Part shown: one piece after another, positions 9,907 through 15,485 of the stretch
Layout of the letters: every line of letters begins with the position of its first letter
How positions within the stretch are numbered: position 1 is the stretch's first letter
NCBI RefSeq assembly: GCF_000820505.1
Contig: NZ_JWJD01000007.1
Coordinates: forward strand, 4,051-68,050
Source of the DNA: Geoalkalibacter ferrihydriticus DSM 17813
Lineage (GTDB): Bacteria > Desulfobacterota > Desulfuromonadia > Desulfuromonadales > Geoalkalibacteraceae
Direction of reading: 5' to 3'
DNA: 64,000 nucleotides
Program-made: the position numbers and the translations under genes
The notes under the pieces: model-generated
Databases searched by the model: none
What the model saw: the letters and a program-made list of their open reading frames with translations, nothing else
Told to the model about the DNA's origin: nothing

Positions 9907-10724
9907 TGATGGGCTCCGCATGGTATGCGTATTCGCGCCTGTTTCTTTGCGTGTTGTGTGTTGCGGTGGTGGCCGCCTGCGCGCCGCCGCGTTCACCGGC
10001 GCCGGCCGTCACTTCAGCCTCCCCCGAGGTTGCTTCGCCGCAGCGAGCGGGAGATGTCTCGCAGCCGCGTGAACTCAGGGGCTGGGAGCGGCCTTATGAG
10101 GTTTTTGGAGAGCGCTATCATCCTCTGCTCAGCCATGAGGGTTTTGTCGAGGAAGGTTTTGCCAGTTGGTACGGCCAGGATTTTCATGGCAAAAAGACCA
10201 GCAACGGAGAAATCTACGACATGTATGCCATGACGGCGGCGCACAAGACTCTGCCCCTGGGCATCCACGTCAAGGTAACCAACCTCGACAACGGCAGCGA
10301 AACCATTCTGCGGCTCAATGATCGCGGACCCTTTGTCAAGGGACGCATCATCGATCTGTCCTATACGGCAGCCAAGAAACTTGACGTGGTGAGGCCGGGT
10401 ACGGCCCCTGTGCGGGTTGAAGCTTTGGGTTACCGCCAGGTCGACTCATCCGGGCAGGTCAGCTATGCACAGCCTCAGAATTGGGAGGTGGGCAGCTATT
10501 CCGTGCAACTCGGCGCCTTTACCATTCGGGAGAATGCCCAGCGCCTTGCCGATCAGATGCAACGCCAGGAGGGCCATTCGAGCATTCACCAGGGGTATGT
10601 GGGGGGACAGCTTTTTTACCGTGTGCGGGCCGGAAAATATCCAACCCTGGCATCGGCCGATGCGGCGAAGCTGCGGTTTGAGTCCCAGGGGTATTCCGGC
10701 AGCTTCGTTATTGCGGCCGAGTAA
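9906..10724 (+). CDS. rlpA: RlpA-like septal lytic transglycosylase lipoprotein with SPOR domain
   Basis: A 272-residue outer-membrane lipoprotein. A signal peptide ends in a lipobox (VVAAC), with the lipidated cysteine near residue 25. The double-psi beta-barrel (about 75-175: [21 protein letters not shown], ... [16 protein letters not shown]) contains the conserved residues of RlpA lytic transglycosylases. The C-terminal SPOR domain (about 196-271, YSVQLGAF ... YRVRAGKY) binds denuded septal glycan. It begins at the accA stop; two consecutive ATGs (9906, 9909) are possible starts. Expected role is peptidoglycan processing at division or cell separation. Confidence 0.92.
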
Positions 10725-10761
10725 GGTTATTCGTAACTATTCAGCGGCAACGTCCGACAGT

Positions 10762-10858
10762 ACCGCAGGGTGCGGCGGTTGAGTGCTGCGTCAAATGTTT
10801 GAGCCGCAGGTGAGTTTTTGCCGCACGTGATGCCGCCGTATCCTGCGGTGCATGCTGA
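10762..10858 (-). repeat. Interspersed GC-rich palindromic repeat, copy A plus partial copy
   Basis: The minus-strand segment 10858-10791 matches the plus-strand segment 13516-13586 over about 68 bases with roughly nine single-base differences, several of them A/G transitions. Each unit contains CCGCAGG and CCTGCGG separated by about 30 bases, so it can form a stem-loop. A partial head (ACCGCAGGGTGCGGCGG, 10762-10778, plus orientation) precedes the full copy in the opposite orientation, as in BIME arrays. It lies between the convergent rlpA and tgt genes, directly after the tgt stop, and could act as an mRNA 3' stabiliser or terminator. Confidence 0.7.
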
Positions 10859-10862
10859 ACAG

Positions 10863-11987
10863 TTACGGTTGTTCATCCTTTCCCTGGCTCTGGTAGCGGC
10901 CCAGGAAATCCTGCTTGAACGCCTGGAATTCATCCTGCTCGATGGCCTTGCGGGCCTGGGTCGTGAGGTTCAGATAGAAGTGTACATTGTGTATGGCCGC
11001 CAGGGTTGCCGAGAGGATCTCGTTGGCGTTGTACAGGTGATGCAGGTAGGCGCGGGTGAAGTTGCGACAGCAGTAACACTCGCAGGCCGGATCAACGGGG
11101 AAGAAATCGCGCCGGTAGCGGCGATGGGTCAGGCGCAGCCGGCCGTGGCTGGTGAACAGGGTGGCACTACGGGCATAGCGGGTAGGTATGACACAGTCGA
11201 ACATGTCCATGCCGCGTTCGATGCTTTCCAGAATGTCCTCGGGAAGTCCCACGCCCATGAGGTAACGCGGCTTGTTTTCCGGCAGATAGGGAGCCGTATC
11301 GTCCACCACCTTCTTCAGCAGTTCCAGTCCCTCGCCGACACTGACTCCGCCTACCGCATAGCCCGGAAAATCAAGATCCACCAAGGCCTGGGCGCAGTCG
11401 CGTCGCAGATCCGCATAGACGCTGCCCTGCACAATGGCGAACAGTGCCTGGTCGGAACGGCTGTGCGACTTCAGGCACAGTTCGGCCCAGCGCAGGGTTT
11501 TCTTGATGGACTGAGCCGCGTAGGCATGGGTTGAAGGGTAGGGAATGCACTCGTCGAAAGCCATGATGATATCGGCTCCCAGAGCATTCTGAATGCGCGT
11601 TGCCTCCTGAGGGCCGAGGAAAATTTCATTGCCGCTGACCTCATGGCGAAAGAAAACACCGTCGTCAGTGATTTTTTTCTTCGGCAATGAAAAGACCTGA
11701 AAGCCGCCGCTGTCCGTGAGGATCGGTTTTGACCAATTCATGAAGCGATGCAGGCCGCCGGCTTTTTCCACAAGTCCCTCGCCGGGGCGCAAATGCAGAT
11801 GATAGGTATTGCTGAGAATGATCTGGGCGCCGGTCTCTTCCACCTGCGCGGTGGTCATGGCCTTGAGGGCGCCATGGGTGCCGACGGGCATGAAAATCGG
11901 TGTTTCGATCACCCCGTGGGGAGTGCTCAGGCGTCCGCGACGGGCGCGACTGGTGCGGTCGGTATGCAGCAATTCAAATTGAAACAT
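10863..11987 (-). CDS. tgt: tRNA-guanine (queuine) transglycosylase
   Basis: A 374-residue TGT that exchanges guanine 34 for the queuosine precursor preQ1 in GUN-anticodon tRNAs. Family motifs include FMPVGTHGALKAM, the substrate Asp loop LTDSGGFQVFSL, the MAFDECIPYPS segment, VGGVSVGEG, the nucleophile Asp region FDCVIPTR, and the zinc site CECYCCRNF followed by a downstream His. A GGAG lies about 13 bases upstream of the start, rather far for a ribosome binding site. It is convergent with rlpA and divergent from the Cas6-like gene. No queA or other queuosine gene is in the window. Confidence 0.97.
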   Translation of the reverse strand: MFQFELLHTDRTSRARRGRLSTPHGVIETPIFMPVGTHGALKAMTTAQVEETGAQIILSNTYHLHLRPGEGLVEKAGGLHRFMNWSKPILTDSGGFQVFSLPKKKITDDGVFFRHEVSGNEIFLGPQEATRIQNALGADIIMAFDECIPYPSTHAYAAQSIKKTLRWAELCLKSHSRSDQALFAIVQGSVYADLRRDCAQALVDLDFPGYAVGGVSVGEGLELLKKVVDDTAPYLPENKPRYLMGVGLPEDILESIERGMDMFDCVIPTRYARSATLFTSHGRLRLTHRRYRRDFFPVDPACECYCCRNFTRAYLHHLYNANEILSATLAAIHNVHFYLNLTTQARKAIEQDEFQAFKQDFLGRYQSQGKDEQP

Positions 11988-12110
11988 GGATGGAATTTAT
12001 CTCCGGGGATGGCAATAACGGCCCCATGTCAGCGGTGATCGCGACACGGTCGCTGATGTTCCTTGTCGGCCCGGTACCATAACAGAAAGGCCTGTTAAAG
12101 GCAATTTGAC

Positions 12111-13049
12111 TTGGCGATGCAGAATTCTGTTTCTGACATTTTTGACTCCCTTGATTTTGTCCGGGTCGTCTTCACCCTGGAGTTTCAGGAGCCTTTTGAT
12201 TTGGATGAGGGCCGCATGCTGCGTTTGCGACGCGATTTGCGCGCGGCCGCGCTTCTCACCCTGGGGGACGAGGAGGCCTACCGCACCCTGTTTGATCCGC
12301 CCCTGACGCAGGATCCGGTTGCCCTTAAGCGTTTTCAGCGACCCGGACCGTCCTTCGTGGTGCGTCCGGACCCTGAAAGATGCGGATATTACGACAGCGG
12401 TGATTGCTTTGATATGGATGTACTTTTCTGGGGCCGCGGTATTCAGGGTTTGACCGAATTCGCCCATACCCTGCAATCGCTCGGCGCCAATGGTCTTAAT
12501 CATGGTGAAGGGCGCTTTGATCTGCTGCAGGTGTCGGCCCGCAATCCCTCGGGGGCGCAGGTGCGCCTTTGGAGCGGGGGGCAATTGCCACAGCAACTTG
12601 CGCCACCCGTCGTTTCCGTGGCCTGGTGGCTCGACTCCCTGCCGCCTCTGGAGGATCGGGCGACCATGGATTTTGTGACGCCCGCCCGTCTGTTATCCCA
12701 GGGCCGCCCCCTGTTCAGACCCACCTTTGCGACTCTTTTTCCGTTCATTCTAAGACGCGTATCGTCCATGGTCCATGCGCACTGCGGGGGGATAGAACTC
12801 TTTGATGATCCAAAGCCTCTGCAACTTGCGGCACAAGGTGTCGAAACCCTTGTCAATGAGCTGTTTTGGAAAGACTGGCGAACCCTTGAAGGTGATGGCG
12901 GAGCACAGGATATCGGTGGCGTGAGTGGCAGGCTGATTCTTGCTGGTGAGGGATTGGCCGAAATCGGATGGCTGTTGCGGATCGGCTCTCTGTTGCAGTT
13001 GGGCAAGGGCGCGGCTTATGGGGCCGGCTGCTATCGGTTGGATTCTTGA
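12111..13049 (+). CDS. cas6: Orphan Cas6-family RAMP protein (CRISPR pre-crRNA endoribonuclease-like)
   Basis: A 312-residue protein with the layout of the CRISPR_Cas6 / DUF2276 family. It has an N-terminal ferredoxin-like half, a short glycine-containing segment (LNHGEGRFDLLQV), then the pattern FVTPARL...FRPTFATLFPFILRRVSSM, and a glycine-rich RAMP end, LLRIGSLLQLGKGAAYGAGCYRL. Cas6 enzymes cut repeat RNA to release crRNAs. No CRISPR array or other cas gene was seen in the window; neighbours are tgt and housekeeping genes. TTG 12111 is 8 bases after AAAGG; ATG 12117 is an alternative. It could process a distant array, act on another RNA, or be a relic. The family call is firm; the substrate is unknown. 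Confidence 0.82.
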   Translation: MAMQNSVSDIFDSLDFVRVVFTLEFQEPFDLDEGRMLRLRRDLRAAALLTLGDEEAYRTLFDPPLTQDPVALKRFQRPGPSFVVRPDPERCGYYDSGDCFDMDVLFWGRGIQGLTEFAHTLQSLGANGLNHGEGRFDLLQVSARNPSGAQVRLWSGGQLPQQLAPPVVSVAWWLDSLPPLEDRATMDFVTPARLLSQGRPLFRPTFATLFPFILRRVSSMVHAHCGGIELFDDPKPLQLAAQGVETLVNELFWKDWRTLEGDGGAQDIGGVSGRLILAGEGLAEIGWLLRIGSLLQLGKGAAYGAGCYRLDS

Positions 13050-13053
13050 CAGC

Positions 13054-13081
13054 TTGCCTATTCAATAGAGCCCAGTATAAT
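13054..13081 (+). promoter_or_regulatory. Candidate promoter for the zinc-ribbon gene
   Basis: TTGCCT (13054-13059) and a consensus TATAAT (13076-13081) with 16-base spacing, 35 bases before the start of the zinc-ribbon gene. Confidence 0.5.
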
Positions 13082-13116
13082 GATATAAAGATTAGTAAAT
13101 TCAAGGGGGTGAATTC

Positions 13117-13428
13117 ATGACCGATCTCTGGGAGGAAAGAAAAAAAGCTCTCGAAAACCAGTATTTTCGCAAGCTGGAAGAGGAGAAGGTTTCCGGTTTA
13201 CGGGAAGCGTCGAAAGAGCGGTTGGTGCGCGAATGTTGCTATAATCGCTGTCCCAAATGCGGCGAAGCCTTGCAGAAGATGGTTTTCCGCGAGGTTCCTC
13301 TCGATAAATGTCCCGGCTGCGGGGGCGTATGGCTCGGACCCAAGGATTTGCAGATTCTCGCTGAAAAGGATCACCGAACCTGGTTTCAGCGCTGGTTCCA
13401 GGCCGAGGAAGACAGCAAAACCGGCTGA
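13117..13428 (+). CDS. Small zf-TFIIB-type zinc-ribbon protein
   Basis: A 103-residue soluble protein with a charged helical N-terminus (1-35) and a zinc ribbon (about 44-70) formed by CPKCG and CPGCGGVWL, the signature of the zf-TFIIB family. The exact function of these small bacterial proteins is not established. An AAGGGGG ribosome binding site precedes ATG 13117, and the gene has its own candidate promoter and a terminator, so it is probably monocistronic. Its position upstream of ftsH does not reveal a role. Confidence 0.8.
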   Translation: MTDLWEERKKALENQYFRKLEEEKVSGLREASKERLVRECCYNRCPKCGEALQKMVFREVPLDKCPGCGGVWLGPKDLQILAEKDHRTWFQRWFQAEEDSKTG

Positions 13429-13458
13429 GGTTCTTCATCGATGTGAGCGTATCTTGCG

Positions 13459-13503
13459 CCCCTGCCGAGGTTTGCTAGGCCTCGGTGGGGGTTTGTCGTT
13501 TTA
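13459..13503 (+). terminator. Intrinsic terminator after the zinc-ribbon gene
   Basis: A strong GC stem (CCCCTGCCGAGG paired with CCTCGGTGGGG, about 13459-13491) with a 9-base loop, followed by TTTGTCGTTTT. It lies 30 bases after the zinc-ribbon stop. Confidence 0.75.
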
Positions 13504-13515
13504 AAAAGAAGGTAC

Positions 13516-13586
13516 CTGCTCAGCATGCACCGCAGGGTGCGGCGGCATCGCATACGGCAAAAACGCGCCTGCGGATCAAACATTTT
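13516..13586 (+). repeat. Interspersed GC-rich palindromic repeat, copy B
   Basis: The plus-orientation copy of the repeat found inverted at 10858-10791. It starts in CTCAGCATGCACCGCAGG, passes through GGCGGCATC and CGGCAAAAAC, and ends in TCAAACATTT. The inner CCGCAGG/CCTGCGG arms can pair. It ends 24 bases before the ftsH start codon, so it lies in or near the ftsH 5' leader. Confidence 0.7.
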
Positions 13587-13610
13587 TTGTTGTCCCCATA
13601 GGAATATGCA

Positions 13611-15485
13611 ATGAATAAAGGCCTCTGGAAACAACTCCTCGTCCTTTTGCTTCTTCTGGTGGCGTTCAATATCTTTTACGTCGCGTCTGTTCCCCCACCC
13701 GTCGGGCCTCTCGAAATCAGTTACAGCCGCTTCAAGCAGGGATTGAAGGAGGGCAATGTCGTCGAGGTCACCGTGCAGGGCGACTCGGTGACGGGGCGCT
13801 TTCGTGATCCGGTTTCAGATCAGGATCTGCTCTCGGCTGAAGGTGAGCCGATATGGCATGAGGAGTTCCACACGACCCTGCCTCCTTTCCAGGATCCGCG
13901 CCTGATGGATGATCTCGAAGAGGCCGGGGTGCAGGTCCATGTCAAACCCGAAGAGGAACCTTCGCCGTGGGCGACGGCTTGGATTTATCTCTTGCCCTGG
14001 ATCCTGATTTTGGGAGTCTGGTGGTTTGTTTTTCGCAGCATGCGCGGCAAGGGCGGGCCAAGCGGATTCATGAGCAATTTTTCCAAATCCGGCGCCAAGC
14101 TCTACACGCAAGAAACCTCTAAAATTAGTTTTGACGATGTCGCAGGTTTACTCGAAGCGAAGCAGGAACTCAGAGAAATTGTTGATTTTCTGCGCGAGCC
14201 TGGAAAGTTTAAGCGCATCGGCGGAAAAGTACCGCGTGGGGTTCTGTTGGTGGGTCCGCCGGGCACGGGAAAAACCCTGATGGCACGGGCCGTGGCGGGG
14301 GAGGCTGGAGTGCCGTTTTTCTCTATCTCGGCCTCTCAATTCATCGAAATGTTCGTCGGGGTCGGCGCCAGCCGTGTGCGCGATCTGTTCACCAATGCTA
14401 AGAAAAACGCACCAAGCATCATCTTTATCGACGAGCTCGACGCGGTGGGCCGCTCCCGCGGTACGGGCATGGGCGGCGGCAGCGACGAGCGCGAACAAAC
14501 CCTTAATCAGTTGCTCTCTGAACTCGATGGTTTTGAGCCCCATTCCGAAGTGGTGGTCATGGCCGCCACCAACCGCCCCGATGTCATTGATTCAGCTCTG
14601 CTACGTCCCGGGCGCTTTGACCGCCAGGTGGTGGTGGATCGACCCGATTGGCGGGCGCGCGAAGAGATTCTCAAGGTTCATAGTCGCCATGTTCCCCTGG
14701 CCAAGGATGTGGATCTTCTGGTCATCGCTCGCGGTACCCCCGGTATGTGCGGTGCCGATCTGGAAAGCCTGATCAACGAGGCTGCACTCATCGCCGCCCG
14801 TGAAAACGCCACCGAAGTGGCCATGATCCACCTGGAACGGGCCAAGGACCGTATTCTCATGGGCGCCGAGCGCAAGCTCATCCTCACCGAAAGGGAAAAA
14901 TGCATCACGGCCTATCATGAGGCGGGTCACGCTTTGGTGGCCAGGTTCACCCCTGGGGCCGATCCGTTGCACAAGGTTTCCATTATCCCGCGCGGACAGG
15001 CGCTGGGCGTGACTCAACAACTTCCCCAGGATGATCGCTATCATTATCCGCGTTCCTATCTCGATGCCCGTATCGCCGTCAGCCTGGGTGGGCGCGCGGC
15101 GGAAAGAGCCCAGTTCGGCGAGGTCTCAACCGGGGCCCAAAACGATCTCAAGCAGGCGACGGAGTTGGCCGAGAAGATGGTCTGCCAGTGGGGTATGAGC
15201 GAGCGCATCGGCCCCATGGTCTTCAGTCGCGGCGAGGAGCACCCCTTCCTCGGTCGAAAACTTGCCAGCGACAAGACCTTCAGCGAGCAGATGGCGTGGC
15301 TCATCGACCAGGAAATCGAAAATATACTTAAGGCCGGAGAAACTGCTGCCGACCGTATCGTCGAAGAGCGGAGGCCGTTATTGGATAAATTGGCGGAAAC
15401 TTTGATGGAGGAAGAATCCCTTGATCGAAAGCGTGTCGATGAAATTCTCGGTCTCAGTGCGGGTGATGAGGGTGACATGGGTTGA
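13611..15485 (+). CDS. ftsH: ATP-dependent zinc metalloprotease FtsH
   Basis: A 624-residue inner-membrane protease of normal length. Two membrane segments (about 5-25 and 120-140) flank the periplasmic domain. The AAA+ module has Walker A GPPGTGKT (around 217), Walker [12 protein letters not shown], the [13 protein letters not shown] pore loop and the second region of homology ending in RPGRFDRQ. The zinc site HEAGH is at 436-440. It degrades unassembled membrane proteins and, in other Gram-negatives, LpxC. A TAGGA motif 8 bases upstream serves the start. It sits between a copy of the palindromic repeat and a small membrane peptide gene. Confidence 0.97.

Follow-up and report, generated by a model that had tools for sequence, protein, structure and literature searches.

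A Cas6-like protein encoded outside cas loci is core to its lineage and may have been recruited to a CRISPR-independent cellular role

Two kinds of Cas6 relatives were already described in 2013, namely PF10040 proteins located in cas loci, treated in passages of PMC3936711, and an inactive archaeal Cas6, treated in passages of a review (PMC3727216). Specifically, in those passages the former (DUF2276/PF10040) carry a Cas6-like Gly-rich motif in a context unlike that of Cas6, and 8 out of 19 are found next to csx16 (PMC3936711); the latter, PhCas6nc of Pyrococcus horikoshii, is an inactive homologue which binds unstructured RNA (PMC3727216). The same passages of the review indicate that the catalytic residues of Cas6 differ among subfamilies, that two S. 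solfataricus Cas6 enzymes are able to cut with neither a general acid nor a general base, and that in type I-C systems Cas5 (Cas5c) is the pre-crRNA nuclease, carrying out the cutting performed elsewhere by Cas6 (PMC3727216). In a search of open-licence PMC texts, in which long lists were judged by titles and by the beginnings of abstracts, we found no report of a CRISPR-independent core Cas6 in the lineage considered here, and the passage on stand-alone Cas6 in PMC8866350 concerns ordinary crRNA processing.

The window analysed in this work, a stretch of 64,000 nucleotides from Geoalkalibacter ferrihydriticus, contains at positions 12111 to 13049 of the plus strand an open reading frame of 312 codons, with a TTG start, an alternative in-frame ATG at position 12117 and no internal stops. 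A preliminary description, made from the sequence alone, had assigned its product to the Cas6 family, and the profile searches keep the 312 aa protein inside Cas6. Specifically, two curated Cas6 profiles match it: PF10040 aligns to residues 186 to 308 (E 3e-9, 37.9 bits against a curated cut-off of 25), and the PADLOC Cas6 profile PDLC01477 covers residues 13 to 311 (E 4.8e-53). PADLOC at E<=10 returned four Cas6 profiles only; Cas5c profiles and NCBIfam profiles gave no match to the protein, and phmmer against the PDB sequences gave only chance matches to nanobodies. The F-x-P-T...LRR-x-S pattern and the RAMP C-terminus pointed out in the preliminary description are both present, the former as LFRPTFATLFPFILRRVSS at about residues 201–219 and the latter as the C-terminal loop GKGAAYGAG (Gly-rich loop, residues 298–306) within a C-terminal RAMP domain spanning approximately residues 183–312. 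The source genome, an assembly of 3.84 Mb in 23 contigs, contains one PF10040 match, and the closest named homologue, from a Geoalkalibacter MAG, is 62% identical (L184).

The predicted structure leads to the same family. The AlphaFold2 model, built on an alignment of 46 rows in which the window protein is joined by fetched orthologues, reaches a mean pLDDT of 94.3 and a pTM of 0.91, and its best Foldseek matches are Cas6 structures, with 6dd5_B at E 7.4e-13 and a TM-score of 0.55 by query length; the rows inspected in this fold search, which hold Cas6 and other RAMP chains only, do not speak against other folds. A second structure aligner gave a Z of 20.5 with 6dd5_B (rmsd 3.7, 257 aligned residues, 18% identity) and of 18.3 with 6fjw (rmsd 3.2, 229 aligned residues, 16% identity). 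The model aligns to 6dd5_B over residues 1–312 and to 6fjw over residues 16–312, so that two sequential RAMP domains are present. The Cas6 homology of the protein is firm. These two best structural matches, the Cas6 domain of the Cas6-RT-Cas1 fusion of Marinomonas MMB-1 (6dd5) and Cas6 of S. thermophilus (6fjw), are CRISPR-linked enzymes, while the window protein is encoded outside any cas operon. Likewise, it has its Pfam family in common with the DUF2276 proteins, but these were collected inside cas loci, according to the passages concerned (PMC3936711), and the orphan genes lie outside them, in a conserved chromosomal place. As to PhCas6nc, it is archaeal, and its likeness to the window protein is drawn from its description in those review passages (PMC3727216).

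The gene stands alone among genes that, from their sequences, look like housekeeping ones, as had been proposed. A divergent gene at positions 10863 to 11987 of the minus strand, which we take by the look of its sequence to be tgt (queuine tRNA-ribosyltransferase), precedes it. On the plus strand it is followed by the gene of a small Zn-ribbon protein (TFIIB-type, PF13453, E 4.9e-14) at positions 13117–13428, by a terminator-like hairpin of 16 pairs at positions 13458–13492, contained in a segment (13429–13500) with a fold z of -3.02, and by a gene at positions 13611–15485 that, again by its look, is presumably ftsH. A promoter-like site at positions 13054–13081, between the Cas6-like and the Zn-ribbon genes, makes their co-transcription not certain. 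An Rfam search at E<=1 over positions 10500–14000 returned one match, far below its gathering score.

The preliminary description had reported neither a CRISPR array nor a cas operon. This holds for the locus: a simple scan requiring exact 20-base repeats detected no array in the window, in the loci L035–L132 or in 46 loci of a second order of the same class (see below), and the flanks of the orphan gene hold tgt, frdCAB, the Zn-ribbon gene and ftsH, with no cas genes or arrays beside it. It does not hold for the genome as a whole, since another contig (C4) carries type I-C cas3, cas5c, cas8c, cas7, cas4 and cas1 (L033:5537-18700) together with an array of 68 copies of a 32-base repeat. Such an array could be taken to favour a service in trans, in which the orphan protein would process the crRNA of remote arrays. 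However, the system has its own Cas5c (L033:7799-8488), also a RAMP protein but of another family, which makes a Cas6 unnecessary for type I-C; the orphan gene is therefore not the missing part of that system, and the presence of CRISPR in the genome does not account for it. The candidate explanation that this CRISPR system lacks a processing nuclease was rejected for the same reason.

The palindromic repeats near the gene, also put forward, speculatively, as a Cas6 substrate, fared no better. They belong to a dispersed 74-bp repeat, outside the system proposed here, one copy of which lies at positions 13512–13585 (plus strand) and an inverted second copy, 86% complementary, at positions 10793–10866 (minus strand). 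The repeat has 58 matches in the source genome, in several places as close pairs, and 7 matches in a congener (G042); a further 15 genomes were searched and have none. As RNA, the two copies of the window fold no better than shuffled sequences (z of 0.04 and -0.92), and in the consensus fold of 30 fetched copies the covariation term is near zero (-0.045). A repeat restricted to two congeneric genomes among those searched and devoid of a fold signal is a poor candidate substrate for a protein of two orders, and we rejected it as a general one; at most, it may be a private target within this genus.

To define the spread of the gene, we searched genomes of increasing distance from the source, up to the phylum level at the widest. 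In the window's own order (hereafter, the first order), tblastn matched 113 of the 136 genomes, among them 74 of the 84 better ones. All the 115 places were scored with three HMMs, which assigned 113 to the orphan type and two to the CRISPR type (L129 in G043 and L131 in G097, both adjoining Csx1/CARF genes); the orphan carriers are thus 112 of the 136 genomes, one of which (G025) has two orphan-type places. The assembly of this last genome (copies at L071 and L091) is 73% complete and perhaps a mixed MAG. In the second order (centre G385), 134 of 141 genomes gave a match; three of them (G537, G573 and G598) hold only a CRISPR-type Cas6, which leaves 131 orphan carriers. Here, HMM typing covered 46 neighbourhood loci, 30 search loci and 20 doubtful places, the rest being assigned by E-value, and all of the neighbourhood loci (46/46) and search loci (30/30) proved to be of the orphan type, with HMMs that contain many of the rows they score.

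A sample of the whole phylum gave matches to the orphan profile in 159 of its 394 genomes; a gap separates the weakest of the ten members of the order that it contains (E 3.9e-88) from the best outsider (E 3.1e-55). Twelve outside places were fetched with their flanks (L224–L235), and all twelve are closer to CRISPR-type Cas6 than to the window protein; some adjoin cas1, csx1 or arrays. Two named matches of the second-order type come from Geobacteraceae MAGs (L181 and L183). The gene can be lost, as no genome of one family (f17, from G109 onwards) is among its matches in the first order. The same family is also absent among the matches of the Zn-ribbon gene, a joint loss. In conclusion, the orphan Cas6-like gene is core to its lineage, usually in single copy and in a conserved place.

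We then compared this distribution with that of CRISPR systems. Cas1, sought with one Pfam model, which systems without Cas1 would escape, occurs in 37 of the 136 first-order genomes; among the orphan carriers, 33 have it and 79 do not. The corresponding figures for the second order are 62 and 69, so that, over both orders, 95 of the 243 carriers have Cas1 and 148 do not: the occurrence of the orphan gene does not follow that of CRISPR systems, as marked by Cas1, across genomes. In the first order, presence of the orphan is not associated with Cas1 (33 + 80 against 4 + 19 genomes, with G097 counted as a carrier; Fisher p 0.31). With additional models, applied to this order only, the RAMP family PF03787 was found in 6 of 136 genomes and Cas3_HD PF18019 in 49 at E<=1e-3 (37 over the cut-off), and in 58 of the 112 carriers neither Cas1 nor PF03787 nor PF18019 gives a match at E<=1e-3. 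In addition, ten genomes of the two orders (G043, G482, G521, G576, G595, G608, G621, G623, G640 and G641) retain the orphan while also having a CRISPR-type Cas6, the orphan copy being assigned by HMM in G043, G482 and G640 and by E-value in the other seven. A service in trans can still point to the carriers that do have Cas1, but it is hard to reconcile with the carriers that lack it, with the missing association and with the genomes keeping both forms, and we regard it as highly unlikely.

Defence genes are usually patchy in their distribution. The near-universal occurrence of the orphan gene, usually as a single copy and in a recurring chromosomal place whose neighbours are annotated in part, thus argues against a defence or counter-defence factor, such as a decoy RAMP protein. 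This possibility, which has on its side the homology to Cas proteins and nothing else, appears to us very unlikely.

The gene order around the orphan is summarised as follows. In the first order, 96 of the 113 orphan-type loci have a Zn-ribbon gene (PF13453) no more than 400 bp downstream and in the same orientation, which makes it the usual next gene. Of the 105 loci with at least 1400 bp of upstream sequence, 78 have a divergent tgt at a distance of up to 700 bp. On the pieces fetched, tgt is present in 91 of 115 first-order and 30 of 46 second-order loci; of these 46 pieces, 16 hold ftsH and not one holds the Zn-ribbon gene. In the second order, the operon of fumarate reductase/succinate dehydrogenase (frdCAB, by Pfam) sits between tgt and the Cas6-like gene. 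The frdB gene is the immediate upstream neighbour, in the same orientation, in 19 of 112 first-order loci and in 33 of the 46 second-order ones, where two are distant frdB-like matches (26–27%) and two others are more than 1 kb away. The two orphan groups are only about 26% identical to each other, and the same gene order despite this divergence is good evidence of orthology. As for the idea that a tgt-cas6-ftsH neighbourhood might be conserved in genomes without CRISPR, the adjacency to tgt does recur in genomes lacking Cas1, but ftsH belongs to the arrangement only in part of the genomes. Inheritance since the recruitment of the Cas6 homologue would have been mainly vertical, and the recruitment itself would most likely predate the split of the two orders. 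The locus of one genome (G267) also has nearby a caspase-domain gene (Peptidase_C14, E 1.5e-17; L222:3802-4986).

The sequence motifs separate the orphan proteins from their CRISPR-linked relatives. The CRISPR-type PF10040 proteins (L129, L131 and 21 other sequences of the phylum) have the Pfam and PADLOC families, the Gly-rich loop and the Arg-Arg pair in common with the window protein, which unlike L129 and L131 is not beside cas genes. Beyond these, they share KGSTFRGxFG, PHP, RYSxRQ, HxGK and a set of four Cys, with little or no variation: in the 23 rows, the R, S, R and Q of RYSxRQ, the His of HxGK and the four Cys are at 100% and the His of PHP at 96%, with similar conservation in a 14-row alignment. 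None of these features (the Cys set, the PHP His, RYSxRQ and the HxGK His) is present in the window protein, which hence falls outside this subfamily. Specifically, RYSxRQ maps to the long β-hairpin of the C-terminal domain (residues 245–278 of the model), and its columns are unconserved in the first order and gaps in 93–100% of second-order rows. At the PHP His position, Pro prevails in the first order and Leu in the second. At that of the HxGK His, 65% of first-order rows have Asn and 59% of second-order rows still have His. The first order has lost the four Cys, which persist in 57–91% of second-order rows, depending on the column. A tree of 70 of the 115 rows, obtained with a quick method, gives each of the two orphan groups a clade of its own and the CRISPR-type proteins a third, with SH-aLRT values of 100, 99 and 98.

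What is retained is also well defined. R215, R216, G298, G304 and G306 are at 100% in all three groups and K299 at 96–100%. In the 46-row first-order alignment, the Gly-rich loop with its basic residue is maintained (G298, G304 and G306 invariant, K299 at 96%), and R193, R215, R216, W253 and D255 are invariant; the last two residues, W253 and D255, are not invariant in the second order.

The loss of the Cys set in the order in which a Zn-ribbon protein is encoded next door invites the guess that the separate gene replaces the lost cysteines (domain replacement). Against it, the 46 first-order rows include several genomes without a Zn-ribbon gene, and yet two of the four Cys columns contain C in only 0% and 4% of these rows. 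Genome-wide, over 136 genomes, the two genes occur together in 100, the Cas6-like gene only in 13, the Zn-ribbon gene only in 2 and neither in 21, a table in which G097 is counted as a carrier though its only match is of the CRISPR type, and G038 as lacking the Zn-ribbon gene though a local search found one. This co-occurrence may reflect the joint loss of one locus, and a partnership between the two proteins is conceivable. We give about even chances to a history in which a Cas6, placed in ancient times between the operon for fumarate reductase/succinate dehydrogenase and ftsH, was adopted for good as a housekeeping factor that binds or processes RNA, and in which one order lost the Cys set and encodes the Zn-ribbon protein next door.

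The loss of motifs might by itself suggest a decaying relic of a lost CRISPR system. However, no stops were found inside the matches of both orders, some of which are short or cut at contig ends, and several residues are invariant over both orders. Furthermore, the dN/dS ratio (Nei-Gojobori) is well under 1, ranging from 0.055 to 0.27 for the pairs with finite dS, within a set limited to pairs that share more than 40 five-residue words and in which dS is saturated for some; it stays low where both genomes lack Cas1 (L099–L105, 0.249; L062–L074, 0.181). The orphan gene is under purifying selection, and a relic is extremely improbable.

Purifying selection also counts in favour of a working enzyme, and the serious rival is an endoribonuclease with a rebuilt active site, which would mature or cut ordinary cellular RNA. 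Known Cas6 active sites vary, to the point of working without a general acid and base in the examples given in the review passages cited above (PMC3727216); this variability means that the loss of motifs is no proof of lost cutting, and sequence alone cannot settle a metal-independent endoribonuclease activity yielding a 2',3'-cyclic phosphate. The invariant first-order residues, with the nearly invariant K299, are compatible with such an enzyme. In addition, residue 224 is His in 91% of the CRISPR-type and 63% of the first-order rows and Tyr in 46/46 of the second order, and thus His or Tyr in most rows; its side chain is a possible catalytic one. This residue, the His of HxGK in 59% of second-order rows and their partly kept Cys all count against a non-cutting protein. 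Conversely, the orphan proteins lack RYSxRQ, a motif of the long β-hairpin that is invariant among the CRISPR-type rows, and none of the His and Tyr residues exceeds 90% conservation in the first order. A PDB profile search based on the CRISPR-type alignment gave only weak Cas6 matches (best E 0.0032), and thus offered no close solved relative from which to map the catalytic residues. Because of residue 224, we raised our estimate for the enzyme slightly, leaving it unlikely though well worth considering, and lowered by as little that for the explanation we favour.

This favoured explanation, to which we give a little better than an even chance, is that a Cas6 homologue was recruited to a CRISPR-independent cellular role, in which it would bind a particular RNA, without cutting of the CRISPR type, as a chaperone or regulator. 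That the gene is near-universal and keeps to a conserved place suggests a cellular role. The protein retains the loop and the basic helix, and its Cas6 fold is intact, which suggests that it binds RNA, whereas the lost motifs suggest that CRISPR-type cutting is gone. Most likely, a particular cellular RNA would be bound through the C-terminal RAMP domain, that is, by the Gly-rich loop, the Arg-Arg helix and the long β-hairpin, and would be left uncut, at least not cut in the manner of the CRISPR-linked relatives. The orphan protein would then act as an RNA chaperone or a post-transcriptional regulator. The Cas6 label of the preliminary description thus stands for homology and fold, but probably not for the RNA cutting it implies, since the protein has lost motifs shared by the CRISPR-linked relatives.

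Cas6 is treated as a CRISPR marker, and yet the orphan type is near-universal in two orders regardless of Cas1, so that profile-based annotation will mislabel this gene. Geobacter is genetically tractable, according to the part of PMC2923632 considered here, and with the Geobacteraceae matches mentioned above this makes the RNA target and the effect of the protein directly testable. The orphan would exemplify how an RNA-binding module of Cas origin can be put to use in ordinary cell biology and, if the favoured explanation is true, how a former Cas protein can run a cellular pathway that is free of CRISPR.
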